From NCBI RefSeq assembly GCF_001026905.1, contig NZ_LAQL01000009.1, forward strand, positions 124,001 to 188,000: a stretch of DNA of 64,000 bases, read 5' to 3'. Below, in pieces: positions 27,959-41,884 of the stretch (position 1 is the first letter of the stretch; each line of letters begins with the position of its first letter). The notes below the pieces were generated by a model. That model was not told the origin of the DNA. It saw only the letters and a program-made list of their open reading frames with translations, and made no database searches. A program made the position numbers and the translations under genes. The DNA comes from Kiloniella spongiae. GTDB lineage: Bacteria; Pseudomonadota; Alphaproteobacteria; Kiloniellales; Kiloniellaceae.

Positions 27959-28470
27959 CCTAACATCGTCCTCGTATATTTAACTGCGTATTTTTTGGGC
28001 GGCCATTCCCGCCTAAACAGGTTCTGTCAACGAGGCTGAACCTCTAACAGCGGCCAAGCAGTCTTCTTACTAGTTTCGCGCGGAGCATAGCGCTTCCGCA
28101 GTGCGGCGAAAAGTCCTTTAGAACGATTGAATCTGTTTTTATGACGATTCTATAAGAAAATTTCACTTTTGGACTGCAAATCACATACTTTATACAGAAC
28201 GAAATTGTTCAACTTTCAAAAAATTGCTGTTTTTATGCCCTATTCCCCTCACGGGAAAAGTGAGTTCTCTGTGAGGAAAAATTGGAGCAAGAACATATAA
28301 TTACCCGATATTCTCACGATCATTGACCATTTATGCCACAGGATTGTTACTGGACGAACACTCACCAAATGGCCTCAGTCTGCCCATAATAAGTACATAA
28401 GTTCATGACAGTGTGTTTTCAAACCAAGTTTACACTTAGGCTTTTAGGCAAAAAATGGGAGTTCATTTAT
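27959..28470. other. 512-bp region between leuC and the DUF547 gene
   Basis: It is a divergent intergenic region. The leuC-proximal part holds a candidate leader peptide and hairpins: GGCGG/CCGCC at about 27998-28013, and AGGTTC/GAACCT at about 28019-28042. The rest is AT-rich and should hold both promoters. I see no other gene. Confidence 0.6.
28044..28088 (-). CDS. Candidate leucine leader peptide upstream of leuC
   Basis: A 14-codon frame reads MLRAKLVRRLLGRC, with four leucines including an adjacent pair. It starts at ATG 28088, about seven bases after GGAAG, and ends 86 nt before leuC. Hairpins follow between it and leuC, which suits ribosome-stalling control of leuCD. No hairpin with a U tract is present on this strand, so a classical attenuator is not shown. 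Confidence 0.4.
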   Translation of the reverse strand: MLRAKLVRRLLGRC

Positions 28471-29361
28471 ATGGCCAGTTTTACACAGAGATTCTCCAGG
28501 CAACTGGCTGTGCCCCTGGCCCTGACAATACTGGTGTTCACCAGTGGCTTCAGCCCCTTCGAGTCGCTTTTTGCCCCGAGTTCCAGCCTTATCCCTCGCT
28601 GGGCTGATTTTAGTGCAGAGAGCACAGAAGCGGTCAATCAAAATGAATGGAACGTCTTCATCCAGAAATACCGCGAAGAAAACTATGACGGTATCGCGCG
28701 GATTGCCTATCACAGAGTTAGCTTTAATGACCAACTGGCCCTCAAAGAACATTTGAAATACCTGCAAAGCGTCAAAGTCAGTACTCTTAACAGAGACCAA
28801 CAACTTGCCTATTGGGTTAACCTCTATAATGCAGCAACCGTAAATCTAATTCTGCAACACATGCCCGTTGAAAGTATCCGGGATATCAATATTTCCCCCG
28901 GGCTATTTGCATCCGGCCCTTGGGGAAAAAAGATTCTCCGCATAGAAGGCGAGAAAATTTCTCTGAATGATATTGAACATGGCATTCTGCGTCCAGGCTG
29001 GAAAGATCCTCGTATTCACTATGTACTGAACTGTGCATCTCTTGGCTGTCCTGATCTCCCCAAAAAGGTTATCACCGCCGAAGAATACGACACCCAACTA
29101 ACGGCTGCAGCCCGACGCTTCATTGATCATCCACGTGCCGTAAACATCGGCGAGAATAACGAAGCGGTTGTTTCCAGTATCTATGTCTGGTTCAAAGAGG
29201 ACTTTGGCGGTAGCGATGCATCTGTACTGGACCACCTGCGCACCTATGCATCCAAAGAACGCCAGAAAGAGTTGATGAAAATTAGATCCATAGAAAACCA
29301 TACCTATGACTGGGACCTAAACTCAGTTCCCGTCGTAGCCACGGCATCAACGGGATCCTAA
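28471..29361 (+). CDS. DUF547-containing exported or membrane-anchored protein
   Basis: The ATG at 28471 (MASFTQRFSRQLAVPLALT), preceded by GGGAG nine bases upstream, gives a 296-aa protein with an N-terminal signal or anchor (about residues 11-26). An in-frame ATG at 28405 would add 22 residues without a site. The DUF547 core is recognisable: QLAYWVNLYNAATVNLIL, LNDIEHGILRPGWKDPRIHY and NCASLGCPDLPKK with a conserved cysteine. The family resembles papain-like folds but its function is unknown. It is a single gene, divergent from leuC. Confidence 0.85.
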   Translation: MASFTQRFSRQLAVPLALTILVFTSGFSPFESLFAPSSSLIPRWADFSAESTEAVNQNEWNVFIQKYREENYDGIARIAYHRVSFNDQLALKEHLKYLQSVKVSTLNRDQQLAYWVNLYNAATVNLILQHMPVESIRDINISPGLFASGPWGKKILRIEGEKISLNDIEHGILRPGWKDPRIHYVLNCASLGCPDLPKKVITAEEYDTQLTAAARRFIDHPRAVNIGENNEAVVSSIYVWFKEDFGGSDASVLDHLRTYASKERQKELMKIRSIENHTYDWDLNSVPVVATASTGS

Positions 29362-29524
29362 ATAAACTATTAATTCCCTGGTAAAATCTCCAACTCCATA
29401 AAAAACCGAAACATTCGTAAACAAGCCCAGAAGGTTACCCCCTGAAGTTATTGATTATTTTTAGTTGCATATATAAATTAAAAATTAACTTATGCAGGCA
29501 AGAGTAAACATACTAAAATCATGA

Positions 29525-29533
29525 GGGGGGGGG
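29525..29533 (+). repeat. Homopolymer of nine G before the helicase start codon
   Basis: G9 occupies the ribosome-binding region and ends three bases before the ATG at 29537. An out-of-frame ATG lies at 29521. Loss of one G or gain of two would place that ATG in frame with the gene, and any change alters Shine-Dalgarno strength or spacing. Such tracts slip during replication. Confidence 0.9.
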
Positions 29534-29536
29534 ATT

Positions 29537-32500
29537 ATGAAAACCACTTTAGAGGAGGAGAATAATACCTCCAATTCAGATTCGGAATTCCTAGAGTATT
29601 CCAATCTAAATACACGAGCTGCACTCGAAAAACTGCGTCAAAATCTACTAGATGTGGGAACCCGCAACAGACTGATTAGTGCACCTTTTAAAAACGCGCG
29701 AGCAAATGCTCTTGAAATTGTAGATGAACTTTCAGATGAAATCTTCCGATTACTTTGGACCGAAGGCAAATCTTTTACTTTCCTCTCCAATCCAGATGAA
29801 AAAAATGAGAAAACTCAACAGCAGAATGACGATAGTCAACCTGTATACATTCCTCCTGAAGAAGAAATCATCAAAGATAAAACTGGCTTAGCTGCACGGC
29901 ATATAGATACCAAACTTCAAACACGGCTTTACAAAGAAACATTACAAAAAAGACTTATTGCACTTAGTAGAGATTCAAACTTGTTCGAAGAAGAACAAGG
30001 CGTAAATATACTTTTTTTAGGAATTGGGTTTCTCAAATGGTTCGACTCAAGATCTTCTGATATTGAACGATTTGCACCACTCATTCTACTTCCCATCTCT
30101 CTTCAAAGAGATCAGGTTCGTAGCCGTTTCAAGCTGAAGAAACGTGACGAAGATATCGAAGTGAACCTCTCACTACGCGCCAAACTGAATGAAGATTTCG
30201 ATATTAGCCTACCAGATTTCCCAGCAAATGAAGATTGGACTCCATCTGATTATTTCTCACTGGTATCCAAGGCAATAACTCAGAAAGATCAATGGTCTGT
30301 TGAACCTGACCGTATACTACTCGGCTTCTACTCTTTTTCAAAGTTCCTGTTATATCGGGACCTAGACGCTTCGGAATGGCCTAGTGACGCAGATATCACA
30401 AAGAATAACTTGATAAGCAGTCTTCTTGTAGATGGGTTCGGAGAAAAAGCCCTAAATATTTTTGAAAATCAGAACTTAGATGATATTTTAGCCCCGCAAG
30501 ATCTCGGCCATGTAAAAGATGCAGATTCCTCTCAAGCTGAAGTCATTAAATTGGCAGCAGAAGGGAATAACCTTGTAGTCCAAGGTCCTCCTGGAACAGG
30601 GAAATCGCAATCAATTGCAAATGTTATAGCTGCGGCAACTCGGAAAGGTAAGAGCGTACTTTTTGTTGCTGAAAAAATGGCTGCTCTGGACGTCGTATAT
30701 CATCGTCTCCAAGAGACAGGGTTGGGTCCGTTATGTTTGGAGTTACATTCCAGAAAAGCAAATAAAAAAGCGGTTATAGAAGAAATCAAACGAACACTGG
30801 AGTTAGGACAGGTCTCTGGTGGTGCTGAAGATACAGCTACTCAAACAAAAATAGTTCGGGACAAACTAAACGAAATATCAAAGTTACTACATTCACCAAT
30901 GGATGAAGTTAGAGAAACCCCTTTCAGAGTACTCTCTGAACTAGTCTGGTTGCGAGAAGAAGGCTTGGAACCTTCTGAGTTCAAAGTGGGTGACAAGCTT
31001 TTATCAGGACCAGAACAACACAATACTGCTCTAGCTGCTCTCCAAAAACTTTGTGACAGGATTTCTTCAACAGGACCTTCAAATCAGCATGACTGGAGGG
31101 GAGTAAGAAACCGACTAACCCCAATGGACGTTGATCGGTTAAAACCAAAAATTCAAGACTTGGTTAAATTTTCGGCACGCTTAGAGGAAAGCTTCGTTCA
31201 GGCGAATAGAGTTGTGAAATTCGATGATGAAGCTTCGATAGAAACAGCCAAAAGCCTTATCGAGTGGTTAACTATCTTAGAAACCATGCCGGATGGAGCC
31301 AGTAATATTCTTTCTTCTGCATCCATCCGAGAAAATACAGCCCGAGCGTTAGAACTGTTGTCCGCAGCCAACAACTTACGCGCTAAATATGATGCAGCGA
31401 TTATCTCGGTAAAAGAAATAGCATTAGATCAAGATTGGAGTGAAGCAAGGCAGTTAATTGCAACTTATGGCAAAAGTCTTTTTCGTTTTTTTAATGGTGA
31501 ATTTAAGAAATCAATTGCTTTGCTGAATTCATATTCAACAGAAGATCCTGCAAAAAAACACGAAGACCGCCTAGCTCAGATTGATAAGTTCATCGAATAC
31601 CAAAATGCATTCAAAAGGCTTGAAAAAGAGGAAACTCAAGCAAAAGCCTTCTTTAACGATTTATGGCGTGGCCGATTAACTGAGACCTCCGCCCCCCAAG
31701 CAGTAATTGAATGGTATCAGGAGCATAAGCCAAAATTAGCAACTCATTCTGATCTCATGGAAGTCCTGAATAATTGCCCAAACAGCGTAAGACTGAACGA
31801 ACTGTCAAGTGAGTTAAACAAAGCTATCCAAGCATTTGAGAAATGCTGGTTAGAAATATGCACTATGCTTGATTTAGATCTAACACAAGCTTTTTCAAAT
31901 AACGGAAGCGTAGCCATTAGAGAAATAAACGAGAAACTCTCTAACTGGCAGGCCAATTTCGAACGTCTGGATGAATGGTTTTTACTTCGTGCAGAAGAAG
32001 AACATTGTCGAGAAGTCGGCTTATCTGATTTTGTGGAAAGTTTATCTTGCGGAGACCTCACAACAACAGATGCTGTAAACGACTATCGTTATGCTCGAGC
32101 AGAAGCACTTTGGAAGCTCATGATTGACAAGAACTCTGCTCTGCTTGACATTGACGGAGATGACCGCACTCAGTTGATAAATAGATTTCAAACCCTCGAA
32201 CTTGAGCTTTTTCGTGCAACTGCTCACGAGATAGCAGCAAAACATACCGCAGGCATACCTACAGGGGCCCAAGGACAAATGGGCATCATAAGAGGAGAGG
32301 CTGGAAAACGAAGAAATCATCGTTCAATACGCAGATTGGTTGAAGACGCTGGCGACGCGCTCCAACAAATAAAGCCTGTATTTTTGATGAGTCCAATCTC
32401 AGTAGCTCAATATCTACCTCCTGGCCGTATCAATTTCGACTTAGTACTAATTGATGAAGCAAGTCAGGTTCGGCCAGAAGACAGTATTGGTGCGATAGCC

Positions 32501-34336
32501 CGTGGTCGCTCTACTATTGTAGTGGGTGATAGTAAACAGTTACCTCCAACGAGCTTCTTTGCTCGAACATTAGGAGATATAGGACAAGAAGATGAAAATG
32601 ATGAGGAAAATGTCGATCAGCCTGGTGTCCATGCCGGTGCTATGGAGAGTATTTTAACTCTTTGTGCCGCAAGGGGGATGACTTCTAAGACACTTCAATG
32701 GCATTATCGCTCCAAGCACCCCTCACTCATCCAAGTCTCAAACGATACATTCTATGAAAACAAGCTAAAGTTCCCTCCTAGCCCTCAAATTGCAGGCCGT
32801 GAGGGATTAATTTTTAGAGAGGTTGACGGAATCTATGATCGAGGAAAAACCAGAACAAATAAAATTGAGGCTCAAGAGGTCGCTAAAGCAGTTTTAAAGC
32901 ATGCAAAAACAGCTCCCCGCCTCTCACTAGGCGTCGTAACATTATCTACTGCTCAGCGGAACATGATAGAAGGTGAACTTGAATTATTGCGTGCAGAGAA
33001 TCAAGACGTTGAGTATTTTTTTTCCAAGGAAAGACATGAGCCTTTCTTTGTAAAAAATCTCGAAAATGTTCAAGGTGATGAACGAGACGTGATTTTTATT
33101 TCAGTCTGCTATGCGAAAGATAAAGATGGATACATGTCCCAATCCTTTGGTCCTGTAAATAGTCTTGGAGGAGAACGCCGTCTAAATGTGTTATTCACGC
33201 GCGCGAAACGCCGTTGCGAAATTTTTGCATCCATTACAGATCAAGATATTGAATTGCGAACTGCAAACGTTCCTGCTGGTAGAAGAGCTTTACATGCATA
33301 CTTAAAATTTGCTCGAACGGGCACAACAGATGTACCTGAACCAAGTGGGAAAGAACCTGACAGCCTGTTTGAAGAAGCTGTTATGAATAAACTTCGTGCA
33401 GCAGGTTATACCGTTGATCCTCAAGTAGGATCAGCTGGCTTTTACATTGATATGGCAATTAGAAACCCTGAAAATATGGATGTATATTTACTAGGTGTCG
33501 AATGTGATGGTGCTACTTACCACAGTGCTGCATGGGCACGAGAACGCGACAGACTTCGTCAAAATGTACTCGAGGCAAAGGGGTGGTTATTACACCGTAT
33601 ATGGAGCACAGATTGGTTCCAACGACCAGAACAAGAATTTCAAAAACTTTTACAGGCAATTGATAAAGCTCGAATAATTCAGGAAAATAACCAAAAAGCA
33701 GAAGAAGAAGTCATCCGGGAACAAGAAGAATCTATTATCAAACGTGAATTACTCTCCCCAGATGAACCCAAAGTAAGTATTCCTTATGTCGAGGCAAAAT
33801 TAGACCCGATTAATGGTTATAATGAACCACATCTCGTACCTGTTTATAAACTGGCAGAGCTAGTAAAATTGATTGTGGAAATAGAACAACCTATTCACAA
33901 AGATGAGATTGCACGGAAAGTTTCTAAAGCATGGGGTCTTCAAAAAGCAGGTGCAAGAATTAAAAAGTTAGTTACAAACGCAATTATTCTGGCAAAGAAG
34001 AATAAAACAATTATAGGAGAAGACTTCTTAACGTCTGATAATGACAAATCCATTATGGTCCGTGATCGCACAAATGTGGAATCATCGTCCCTTAGAAAAG
34101 CCCAATATTTACCACCTGATGAAGTTGATTTAGCTATTCATGAGTCAGTTACACGAAATGTTGCTGCGACCGCTGATGATTTAGCAAGAGACGTAGCAAA
34201 AGCATTTGGCTTTAAATCAACAAGCGCGCAATTAAAAACTTCTATTCTCGAACGAATAAATACACAGGTATCACAGGGAACTTTAGAAGATTTTAATGGA
34301 CAGATAGCAAAATCTGATCAATCAAATACATCATGA
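29537..34336 (+). CDS. DUF4011 - superfamily 1 helicase - Vsr/MTES_1575-type nuclease - DUF3320 protein (Hhe-like defence protein)
   Basis: This is a single 1599-aa protein. The DUF4011 start is at about 30-60 (ALEKLRQNLLDVGTRNRLIS). Walker A is QGPPGTGKS (349-357), Walker B is LIDEASQ with D973-E974, then VVGDSKQLPPTSFF, and the C-terminal helicase motif is GGERRLNVLFTRAKRRCE near 1211. A restriction-endonuclease-like domain is at about 1275-1375, with D1305, E1322 and D1324 in GVECDGATYH and WLLHRIWSTDWF. DUF3320-like repeats lie at about 1440-1485 and 1535-1590. This layout matches the single-gene anti-phage system reported as Hhe (DUF4011-helicase-Vsr). The gene is visibly AT-richer than its neighbours and sits alone between a DUF547 gene and the rplS operon, which suggests acquisition. 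Antiviral function is inferred. Confidence 0.9.
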   Translation: MKTTLEEENNTSNSDSEFLEYSNLNTRAALEKLRQNLLDVGTRNRLISAPFKNARANALEIVDELSDEIFRLLWTEGKSFTFLSNPDEKNEKTQQQNDDSQPVYIPPEEEIIKDKTGLAARHIDTKLQTRLYKETLQKRLIALSRDSNLFEEEQGVNILFLGIGFLKWFDSRSSDIERFAPLILLPISLQRDQVRSRFKLKKRDEDIEVNLSLRAKLNEDFDISLPDFPANEDWTPSDYFSLVSKAITQKDQWSVEPDRILLGFYSFSKFLLYRDLDASEWPSDADITKNNLISSLLVDGFGEKALNIFENQNLDDILAPQDLGHVKDADSSQAEVIKLAAEGNNLVVQGPPGTGKSQSIANVIAAATRKGKSVLFVAEKMAALDVVYHRLQETGLGPLCLELHSRKANKKAVIEEIKRTLELGQVSGGAEDTATQTKIVRDKLNEISKLLHSPMDEVRETPFRVLSELVWLREEGLEPSEFKVGDKLLSGPEQHNTALAALQKLCDRISSTGPSNQHDWRGVRNRLTPMDVDRLKPKIQDLVKFSARLEESFVQANRVVKFDDEASIETAKSLIEWLTILETMPDGASNILSSASIRENTARALELLSAANNLRAKYDAAIISVKEIALDQDWSEARQLIATYGKSLFRFFNGEFKKSIALLNSYSTEDPAKKHEDRLAQIDKFIEYQNAFKRLEKEETQAKAFFNDLWRGRLTETSAPQAVIEWYQEHKPKLATHSDLMEVLNNCPNSVRLNELSSELNKAIQAFEKCWLEICTMLDLDLTQAFSNNGSVAIREINEKLSNWQANFERLDEWFLLRAEEEHCREVGLSDFVESLSCGDLTTTDAVNDYRYARAEALWKLMIDKNSALLDIDGDDRTQLINRFQTLELELFRATAHEIAAKHTAGIPTGAQGQMGIIRGEAGKRRNHRSIRRLVEDAGDALQQIKPVFLMSPISVAQYLPPGRINFDLVLIDEASQVRPEDSIGAIARGRSTIVVGDSKQLPPTSFFARTLGDIGQEDENDEENVDQPGVHAGAMESILTLCAARGMTSKTLQWHYRSKHPSLIQVSNDTFYENKLKFPPSPQIAGREGLIFREVDGIYDRGKTRTNKIEAQEVAKAVLKHAKTAPRLSLGVVTLSTAQRNMIEGELELLRAENQDVEYFFSKERHEPFFVKNLENVQGDERDVIFISVCYAKDKDGYMSQSFGPVNSLGGERRLNVLFTRAKRRCEIFASITDQDIELRTANVPAGRRALHAYLKFARTGTTDVPEPSGKEPDSLFEEAVMNKLRAAGYTVDPQVGSAGFYIDMAIRNPENMDVYLLGVECDGATYHSAAWARERDRLRQNVLEAKGWLLHRIWSTDWFQRPEQEFQKLLQAIDKARIIQENNQKAEEEVIREQEESIIKRELLSPDEPKVSIPYVEAKLDPINGYNEPHLVPVYKLAELVKLIVEIEQPIHKDEIARKVSKAWGLQKAGARIKKLVTNAIILAKKNKTIIGEDFLTSDNDKSIMVRDRTNVESSSLRKAQYLPPDEVDLAIHESVTRNVAATADDLARDVAKAFGFKSTSAQLKTSILERINTQVSQGTLEDFNGQIAKSDQSNTS

Positions 34337-34401
34337 GAGTCGGTTAAATAAACAACGGTGTAGCATCACCTACTTTTCTTTTTCATAAATCATAATTTAA
34401 A

Positions 34402-34438
34402 CAACAAAAATGGGTGCCACTTGGCACCCATTTTTGTA
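34402..34438 (-). terminator. Bidirectional terminator between the helicase gene and rplS
   Basis: ATGGGTGCCA and TGGCACCCAT pair with a 2-nt loop, flanked by AAAA on one side and TTTTTG on the other. It serves both the converging plus-strand helicase gene and the minus-strand rplS operon. Confidence 0.88.
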
Positions 34439-34485: not shown

Positions 34486-34914
34486 TTACTTTTTAGCAGC
34501 TGCCTTAGCAGCAGCTTTATCAGCACGATCCGCAGCAGCGGCTTTACCAGCAGCACCAGTTGTTTTTTCTGCGATACGTGCAGATTTACCACGACGGCCA
34601 CGTAGATAGTAAAGCTTCGCACGACGCACATCACCGCGACGGATCAATTCAACTGAATCGACACGTGGGCTGTAAAGTGGGAATACACGCTCAACGCCTT
34701 CACCGTAAGAAATCTTACGAACTGTGAAAGAAGAGTTCAGACCAGCATTTTTACGTGCGATACATACACCTTCAAATGCCTGGATACGCTCACGTGTACC
34801 CTCAACAACTTTAACGTTTACGCGGACGGTATCACCAGCAGCAAACTCGGTAACTTTTTTGCCATCTGTAAGTTTGGCAACCTGATCAGCTTCTAGCTTC
34901 TCGATTACATTCAT
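34486..34914 (-). CDS. rplS: 50S ribosomal protein L19
   Basis: The start ATG 34914 ([11 protein letters not shown]) matches L19 and is preceded by AGAGGA; this gives 142 aa. The conserved core includes [39 protein letters not shown] and [15 protein letters not shown]. It ends in an Ala/Lys-rich tail of about 25 residues, common in alphaproteobacterial L19. It is the last gene of ffh-rpsP-rimM-trmD-rplS. Confidence 0.97.
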
Positions 34915-34971
34915 GTTTCTATCCTCTACCATTCTATTGGGGCCAATGACCCGTTTAACTTTTCAACGGAC

Positions 34972-40127: not shown

Positions 40128-40973
40128 ATGAAGTATCTATTTCTTGTTACGCTATGCCTTGCTACTCTCACCGCATGCCAGACGACGAATAAATCATCAA
40201 AAGAAACACATGGTGCATTTTATGTCGATGGCGATCAAGTTGTCGGCGGAACACTGAACGATTTCGAACTTGATACAACTAAGGTTTTCAAAAATAGAGA
40301 TCTCAGCAAAACGACCCTCTTAATTTACAACCATGGCACAATAAGTTCAGGTATCCACCAAAGGTGCCACACAGACTGGCTACCTGCTTATGTCAGGCTA
40401 TTAACCAAACAAGATTCAGATATCATTGCATATTATCTATGCTCACAAGAATCTGGAGGAAATTCCAGAAACAGTATTGTAAATCAAGTACATTACAAAC
40501 GAGGCATCGAAATCGCTGAAGTATCAGATAAATTTCAAAAACTCGGAATCCTAAAGAATAATATATTTCTGATGGGTCACTCAGGTGGCGCATCATCAAG
40601 CTTAATGGCTGCTTCAAGAACACCTGAAAAATTCAATAGTTATATTATAACAGCACCTGGTTACGGCTACGCCTATCTGGGAGGATCAAATCAAGCTTCA
40701 AACTACGGAAACTTGTATAATAATTGGAAAACCATCATTCAAAGAGGCACTAAATCCCGGGGAGTTGTCTATGCCTTCCCTGGTGATAAATATTCCCCTC
40801 CTGAAGATATCGCGTTCATGCAAAACATGCGTAACATTGACTACAAAATCTTATTAAATAAAGATGATACAAACTGCGAGTTAGACGAAATTCATGCTTA
40901 TCCATGGACTAAATGTTTCGCTCTAAGTGAAACCAAATTCATCTTGAATTATATTAAAAAAAGCAGCGAATAA
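40128..40973 (+). CDS. Lipoprotein with alpha/beta-hydrolase motifs, copy 1
   Basis: This 281-aa protein has a lipobox LTAC with Cys17 after an N-terminal hydrophobic segment, so it is a membrane-anchored lipoprotein. A likely catalytic triad is S152 in GHSGGAS, D220 in FPGDKYSPPED and H256 in DEIHAYPW. YNHGT (67-71) gives the oxyanion loop. Cysteines C80, C105, C250 and C263 match the next gene and probably form disulfides. A GGGG stretch precedes the start. It is not a family I can name and is visibly AT-rich. Esterase or peptidase action on an envelope substrate is inferred. Confidence 0.8.
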   Translation: MKYLFLVTLCLATLTACQTTNKSSKETHGAFYVDGDQVVGGTLNDFELDTTKVFKNRDLSKTTLLIYNHGTISSGIHQRCHTDWLPAYVRLLTKQDSDIIAYYLCSQESGGNSRNSIVNQVHYKRGIEIAEVSDKFQKLGILKNNIFLMGHSGGASSSLMAASRTPEKFNSYIITAPGYGYAYLGGSNQASNYGNLYNNWKTIIQRGTKSRGVVYAFPGDKYSPPEDIAFMQNMRNIDYKILLNKDDTNCELDEIHAYPWTKCFALSETKFILNYIKKSSE

Positions 40974-41005
40974 AAGCTCATCCTTTCATTGATTCTGTCA
41001 TATAG

Positions 41006-41884
41006 ATGAAGAAGAGTATAATGAAATTAGGACTATACGTTTTCTGTACTACGCTATCACTTATGTTTATAACGGCATGTCAAACGACCAAAATAGACAA
41101 AATAGACGATCCTTATGGTGCTTTTGCTGTTGGTGATAGTTTTACACCCATTCGTGATGCTGACTTTGCAAAGCAGATGAAGCGAAGCATACCCAATCCG
41201 GAAGACACGATTCTTTTTATCTATAATCATGGGACAAGTAACGGTGGTCATGGACAAAAGTGTTACCCGGAACTAATTCCGTCCTACGCCCGAGCAATTG
41301 TTCGCGAACACAAAGAAACCGTTATTTTTTATCTCTGCTCTCAACAAGTAAGCGGTAAAACGCCTGGAGAAGCCCGTTACTTTAAGAGAAGCGTTGAGAT
41401 AGAGCTCCTTTTAGAGAAATTCAAACGCCACGGCATTACACCCGACAGAACATTCTTATTAGGACATTCCGGTGGAGCTTCAACCACCTTGGTTGCGGCA
41501 GCGGATATTCCGGATTCATTTAACGGGTTCATCGTTTCAGCTCCGGGATATGGTTATGCCTATACAGGGAAAAGTAAGGAATCAGATAACCTGGCACCTT
41601 ATTACCAAATATGGAAATCTACCGTTGAGCAAGCAACGGAAAAGCCAGGTCTGGTTTATTCCTTTAAGGGCGACACAATCGCCCCACCAGAAGATCTCGA
41701 CTTCATGAAAGAGATGAACAATATCAAATTGTTAATCCAAACTCCGGAAGATTGTGGCATTTCTGATTTTCATGGCTATCCTTGGAGCCGATGTTTCAGA
41801 GAGAAAGAAACACCCAAAATTTGGCAATATATTCAACAGCGCATATTTGCCGCACAAAATCAGATTTCCAATAACATAAACTAG
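41006..41884 (+). CDS. Lipoprotein with alpha/beta-hydrolase motifs, copy 2
   Basis: This 292-aa protein is a paralogue of the preceding gene. The lipobox is ITAC with Cys25; the start could also be ATG 41021. Matching features are IYNHGT, GHSGGAS with S155, GDTIAPPED with D223, FHGYPW with H256, and cysteines C86, C111, C250 and C263 in the same order. It is separated from copy 1 by 32 nt and from mtaB by 70 nt. The pair clearly arose by tandem duplication and has diverged well below identity, so the two may differ in substrate. Confidence 0.8.
   Translation: MKKSIMKLGLYVFCTTLSLMFITACQTTKIDKIDDPYGAFAVGDSFTPIRDADFAKQMKRSIPNPEDTILFIYNHGTSNGGHGQKCYPELIPSYARAIVREHKETVIFYLCSQQVSGKTPGEARYFKRSVEIELLLEKFKRHGITPDRTFLLGHSGGASTTLVAAADIPDSFNGFIVSAPGYGYAYTGKSKESDNLAPYYQIWKSTVEQATEKPGLVYSFKGDTIAPPEDLDFMKEMNNIKLLIQTPEDCGISDFHGYPWSRCFREKETPKIWQYIQQRIFAAQNQISNNIN

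Follow-up and report, generated by a model that had tools for sequence, protein, structure and literature searches.

The 64-kb stretch of DNA that was analysed (the window) raises the question of what a long gene is doing between a DUF547 gene and the rplS operon of Kiloniella spongiae, how it came to stand there, and whether it is the acquired defence gene that a first, sequence-only reading took it for. The open reading frame (29537..34336, + strand) starts with ATG, encodes 1599 aa without an internal stop and is present in one copy in the 4.47-Mb genome. All five Pfam matches in the protein were above the curated cut-offs, namely DUF4011 (aa 36-217, 29642..30187; E 7.5e-40), the first superfamily 1 (SF1) helicase part AAA_11 (aa 330-458, 30524..30910), the second helicase part AAA_12 (aa 1046-1231, 32672..33229), the Vsr-type nuclease MTES_1575 (aa 1278-1375, 33368..33661; E 3.2e-36) and one DUF3320, all on the + strand. 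These matches confirmed the combination of DUF4011, SF1 helicase and MTES_1575/Vsr nuclease that had been claimed, and the profile search that had been proposed as a check thus detected both the DUF4011 and the nuclease domain. The DUF4011 score of 136.9 bits against a cut-off of 22.2, together with the Walker A sequence GPPGTGKS (aa 350-357) and the helicase motif II DEAS (aa 973-976, 32453..32464, + strand; identical in 92 of 92 rows), places the protein in the DUF4011 superfamily. In this wider alignment, which was reduced from 101 to 92 rows by excluding five sequences under 1300 aa as well as L142, L158, G173 and G366, residues K356, D973 and E974 were identical throughout. The nuclease residues D1305, E1322 and D1324, already named from the sequence, were identical in 7/7 full-length homologues and in 90, 77 and 89 of the 92 rows, respectively. 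We consider it likely that the gene encodes a horizontally acquired, single-protein, DNA-targeting nuclease-helicase that belongs to the PDC-S37 part of the DUF4011-helicase-Vsr superfamily, is a relative of Hhe, and acts against phage or other invading DNA.

The domain order had been matched to Hhe, which is reportedly a single-gene system. Hhe (NF042953, PDLC02194; K. pneumoniae WP_243440425.1) does share the order of DUF4011, split SF1 helicase and MTES_1575 nuclease, and it is 42% identical to the 1599-aa protein over aa 811-1381. This part of the claim stood, but identity with Hhe failed on score, tail and tree position, and membership was rejected. The NCBI Hhe model gave 1017 bits in three stretches against an equivalog cut-off of 2000, on which an annotated Klebsiella Hhe scores 2735, and the PADLOC Hhe model ranked second with 686 bits, again in three stretches. 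Rank 1 in PADLOC was PDC-S37 (PDLC05009), with 1748 bits in a single stretch (aa 26-1591) over positions 6-1545 of a 1550-position model; this model comes without a stated cut-off, and the assignment is by full-length match. The match runs end to end with no structural difference seen, and the nearest homologue scored like the window protein (1740 bits). In contrast, DUF3320, which is present in the 1599-aa protein, gave no hit at E up to 0.001 in the Hhe reference of 1911 aa. In a phylogeny of 92 rows (603 columns), made by a quick method with SH-aLRT support only and a single Hhe row, the window protein fell into a 17-row set (support 100) inside a 74-row set (support 99) that excludes the Hhe row, which was placed in a separate 5-row set (support 95).

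The best NCBI model was ProA (NF058533), with 1382 bits over aa 7-1560, below its equivalog cut-off of 1500; the first 336 positions of this model have no counterpart in the 1599-aa protein. When five comparison proteins were scored, three (L111, L161 and L134) were over the ProA cut-off, while the nearest homologue (1386) and Hhe (1134) were under it, and only Hhe itself was over the Hhe cut-off of 2000. Two ProA-passing proteins lay within the 74-row set and one outside it, and such proteins flanked the window protein on the tree, with L111 and G217 in a common 46-row set with it and L134 outside the 74-row set. Judged by these scores and this tree, ProA does not appear to be a clade apart from the 1599-aa protein, for which "ProA-like" would be a fair description. 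NCBI ProA and PADLOC PDC-S37 overlap without a clean border, and there are DUF4011-helicase-Vsr proteins to which the name Hhe does not apply. The closest sequence among the best 80 of 554 confirmed candidates was 45% identical and came from an alphaproteobacterium record. The claimed kinship with anti-phage families held, since the best profiles were PDC-S37, a PADLOC anti-phage candidate, and ProA, an anti-phage protein as named by NCBI. PDC-S37 is a candidate anti-phage family, and the 1599-aa protein is a further member of this known candidate defence kind, beside Hhe. In the open-access literature searched, no paper used the name PDC-S37 and no title dealt with Hhe, with PDC-S37 or with an anti-phage ProA; no PDC term was found in the accessible part of PMC9252829.

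The C-terminal tail had been described as two DUF3320-like units, possibly an unusual feature. Unit 1 (aa 1420-1508, 33794..34060, + strand) is a predicted winged helix that contains the Pfam DUF3320 match (aa 1432-1477; E 7e-13), and unit 2 (aa 1509-1599, 34061..34333, + strand) is a predicted winged helix homologous to unit 1 that Pfam does not call. Profile-profile comparison of the two units gave a probability of 97.5% and E 5.9e-12 (profiles of 62 and 63 rows), whereas six other segments compared with either unit (12 comparisons) did not exceed 1.3%. The repeat is therefore real, but it is not unusual, because residues spanned the two segments in 62/63 and 63/63 full-length rows. In addition, the available part of a 2013 survey of HEPN proteins (PMC3710099) already lists an MTES_1575 protein with an SF1 helicase, a Vsr-type REase and two winged helix-turn-helix (wHTH) domains overlapping DUF3320, as here. 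That protein additionally carries HEPN and transglutaminase domains, neither of which was found in the 1599-aa protein with Pfam at E up to 1. The double tail as a peculiarity of this protein was ruled out; a tail of two wHTH units that is present family-wide is well supported. In the predicted structure of aa 1255-1599 (pLDDT 91.5; pTM 0.60, which leaves the mutual placement of the domains unsure), each of the two units consists of three helices and a wing. The structural matches of this model were winged-helix proteins for the tail and Vsr-like nucleases for the front part, which is similar to 3hrl (target-normalised TM 0.70) and to the catalytic domain of I-Bth0305I (0.71). One of 541 matches reached E<=0.001, the DNA crosslink glycosylase AlkX (7.4e-4). 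The DUF4011 part (aa 26-335) was also modelled with confidence (pLDDT 90.9), and no PDB entry matched it at E<=0.001 (best E 0.059, probability 0.07). Its best match among viral models, an AAA domain protein of a myovirus, had an E of 0.0026 and a probability of 0.95 but a TM of only 0.24, and no fold was assigned. A solved structure of this confidently modelled part without a PDB counterpart would inform the whole superfamily.

The gene stands between the DUF547 gene (28405..29361, + strand) and rplS (34486..34932, - strand), as the sequence-only reading had placed it, and the genes around it are DUF547, leuC, leuD, rplS, trmD, rimM and ffh. A terminator-like hairpin of rplS lies at 34404..34437 (- strand). 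In seven of eight congeneric genomes the gap between DUF547 and rplS measures only 96-195 nt, stop codons included, and a terminator-like hairpin is found within each near-empty gap among those listed. None of the eight congeners, one of which has a genome only 77% complete, contained DUF4011, and among 14 further members of the bacterial family it was detected in one, as a frame of 2034 aa. The homology to the right flank begins again at 34394-34403, just ahead of the rplS terminator, in the four congeners that are nearest. The opposite pattern, a gene that all relatives carry at this position, was looked for in the congeners and was not observed. These findings agree with the proposed acquisition into a core-gene gap, and the simplest reading of the compared sequences would be a single-gene gain in this lineage. 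In the eighth congener, a GNAT acetyltransferase gene (L054:2942-3850) occupies a 1296-nt gap at the same place, so that additional genes have probably entered this gap on two or more occasions. The clean single-gene insertion between conserved genes, with a near-empty site in seven sister species, means that the gain can be studied.

As had been noted, the gene is AT-rich relative to its neighbours, with a GC content of 0.408 against an ORF median of 0.472, the third lowest of 53 ORFs in the window. Its GC3 of 0.301 is the lowest of the 53, but this value alone says little because the flanking core gene rplS is nearly equal (0.302). Marks of a mobile element were also looked for. There is no tRNA in the 64-kb window, and the longest inverted match between the insert ends is just 7 nt. 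The 9-bp direct repeat TAAATAAAC is present at the DUF547 stop codon (29359..29367) and again at 34345..34353 (both + strand), so that an insert including one copy would measure 4986 bp. The repeat brackets the insert as a target-site duplication would, but it is statistically weak: a 9-mer shared somewhere in the insert ends has a chance of 0.19, and the chance of 0.008 for the expected place depends on a limit chosen post hoc. None of these features was accepted as a mobile-element mark.

Relatives of the protein are patchily spread. Among 384 other sampled genomes of the class, 10 matched it at E<=1e-150, and 11 of 57 other relatives were positive at E<=0.001, with G027 as the only one whose match was full-length. 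The best 80 of 554 confirmed candidates came from Pseudomonadota, Bacteroidota, Planctomycetota, Acidobacteriota, Bacillota and others, and the phyla were intermixed on the 92-row tree. Relatives at E<=1e-100 were found in 257 of 72,556 plasmid records (15 with 80% coverage), compared with 1 of 50,697 phage records at E<=1e-50; relatives were also present at 10 loci in viral contigs, some of them partial. The difference between plasmids and phages would suit a weapon directed chiefly at plasmids or competing mobile elements and not at phage, a reading that overlaps with the one we prefer. However, 219 of the 257 plasmid records are from Klebsiella, the seven Klebsiella rows among the matches listed are annotated as Hhe and cover 36% of the query, and the window copy lies between core genes and not on a recognised plasmid. 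We therefore regard a role mainly against plasmids as rather unlikely. Defence against phage or other invading DNA, as preferred here, is supported by the best profiles (PDC-S37 and ProA), the conserved helicase and nuclease residues, the winged-helix and Vsr-like structural matches, the near-empty site in seven congeners, this patchy spread and the relatives on plasmids and viral contigs, and on these grounds a defence role is suggested for the 1599-aa protein.

The genes beside the relatives were examined in two ways. At 35 loci, the two nearest genes on each side (140 proteins) had hits to 122 PADLOC models at E<=1e-10, including Old, GajA, AriA, DpdF and type II methyltransferase models, whereas the number was 2 for the 52 other ORFs of the window; PADLOC models overlap, so that the 122 models may stand for few proteins, and the control set is small and drawn from a single genome. 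Each of the 25 models listed matched 1 to 4 of the 140 proteins, and the commonest, mad3, also matched 1 of the 52 control ORFs. The neighbours of the relatives thus modestly support a defence setting. The recurrent Pfam families beside the relatives were mostly ordinary. In addition, an all-against-all comparison was made of 1228 predicted neighbour ORFs from 80 loci, and no recurrent specific partner gene was found among them, in agreement with the claim that the gene stands alone. The widest clusters spanned 11, 10, 8 and 7 of the 80 loci, with at most three members within 3 kb. They were rejected as partners, as they are common superfamilies where identified: representatives of the 11-, 10- and 7-locus clusters and of one 4-locus cluster were a short-chain dehydrogenase, an ABC ATPase, an AraC regulator and an aldehyde dehydrogenase. 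Clusters with several close members mostly reflected shared synteny in Chitinophaga or Hymenobacter. In three Hymenobacter loci (L094:8036-9856, L121:8009-9820 and L146:8081-9838) the DUF4011 gene is directly preceded by the end of a roughly 600-aa ORF; as the one at L094 encodes an amino acid permease, this is shared synteny rather than a partner.

The ordinary neighbours would also fit a nuclease-helicase retained for maintenance or repair of the host genome, in which defence would be a side role at best. The nearest solved helicases by sequence are SMUBP-2 (E 1.1e-9) and UPF1 (4.5e-7), above which recA chains rank without a single passing stretch, and the best structural match of the tail is the DNA crosslink glycosylase AlkX; these points favour a repair function. 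Moreover, according to the part of PMC10250203 that was available, all P. aeruginosa isolates of one study carry a DUF4011 gene, and some DUF4011 members may be stably kept if that gene belongs to this branch. A gene that serves its own host in this way is hard to reconcile with the lack of DUF4011 in all eight congeners and in 13 of the 14 further family members, the near-empty sites, the relatives on plasmids and viral contigs and the defence-type models among the neighbours of relatives, and we consider a repair function unlikely.

A G9 homopolymer (29525..29533, + strand) lies 3 nt ahead of the start codon, overlaps a GAGG and is a possible slippage site. The genome contains 8 distinct tracts of at least nine G, and in this case only does an ATG follow at a distance of 2-10 nt; six of the other seven are inside open frames on either strand, and one is near a contig end in none of the frames listed. 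Judging from the local sequence, slippage between GAGG and ATG could change their spacing and possibly make expression phase-variable. No run of eight or more G or C was found from 150 nt upstream of the open frame to 50 nt past it in any of 90 homologues, which speaks against a family-wide switch. That the gene is a phase-variable defence gene, in which slippage of the G9 tract would toggle translation of a nuclease-helicase that endangers its own host, and which belongs to a non-Hhe branch with a DUF4011 fold lacking a PDB match, seems doubtful.

An RNA- or transcript-acting system, with a UPF1-like motor and SelB-like winged helices that would bind RNA and a nuclease that would act on RNA or R-loops, is improbable: the motor is closest to SMUBP-2 and UPF1 among solved helicases, and the tail matches include SelB winged helices with SECIS RNA (E 0.022 and weaker), but the nuclease is of the DNA endonuclease kind and DNA-binding winged helices match too (AlkX and, at 0.21, E2F-DP). 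For the preferred DNA-targeting nuclease-helicase, binding or sensing of invader DNA as an end, a branched or a replicating form may fall to DUF4011 and the paired winged helices, the SF1 motor would then load and translocate with ATP, and the Vsr-type nuclease would nick or degrade the invader DNA. The chemistry proposed here, ATP-driven translocation and cutting, would follow from the domain families, and we infer the target and the trigger; the role of DUF4011 is the largest gap in the mechanism. For the sparing of self, recognition of a DNA structure or a replication state would be likelier than that of a methylation mark, because the insert contains no methylase. Elsewhere in the window, two adjacent ORFs at 40128-41884, which have no PADLOC match at E<=0.01, show GC contents of 0.38 and 0.42 amid genes of 0.45-0.52 and are possibly another acquired stretch.
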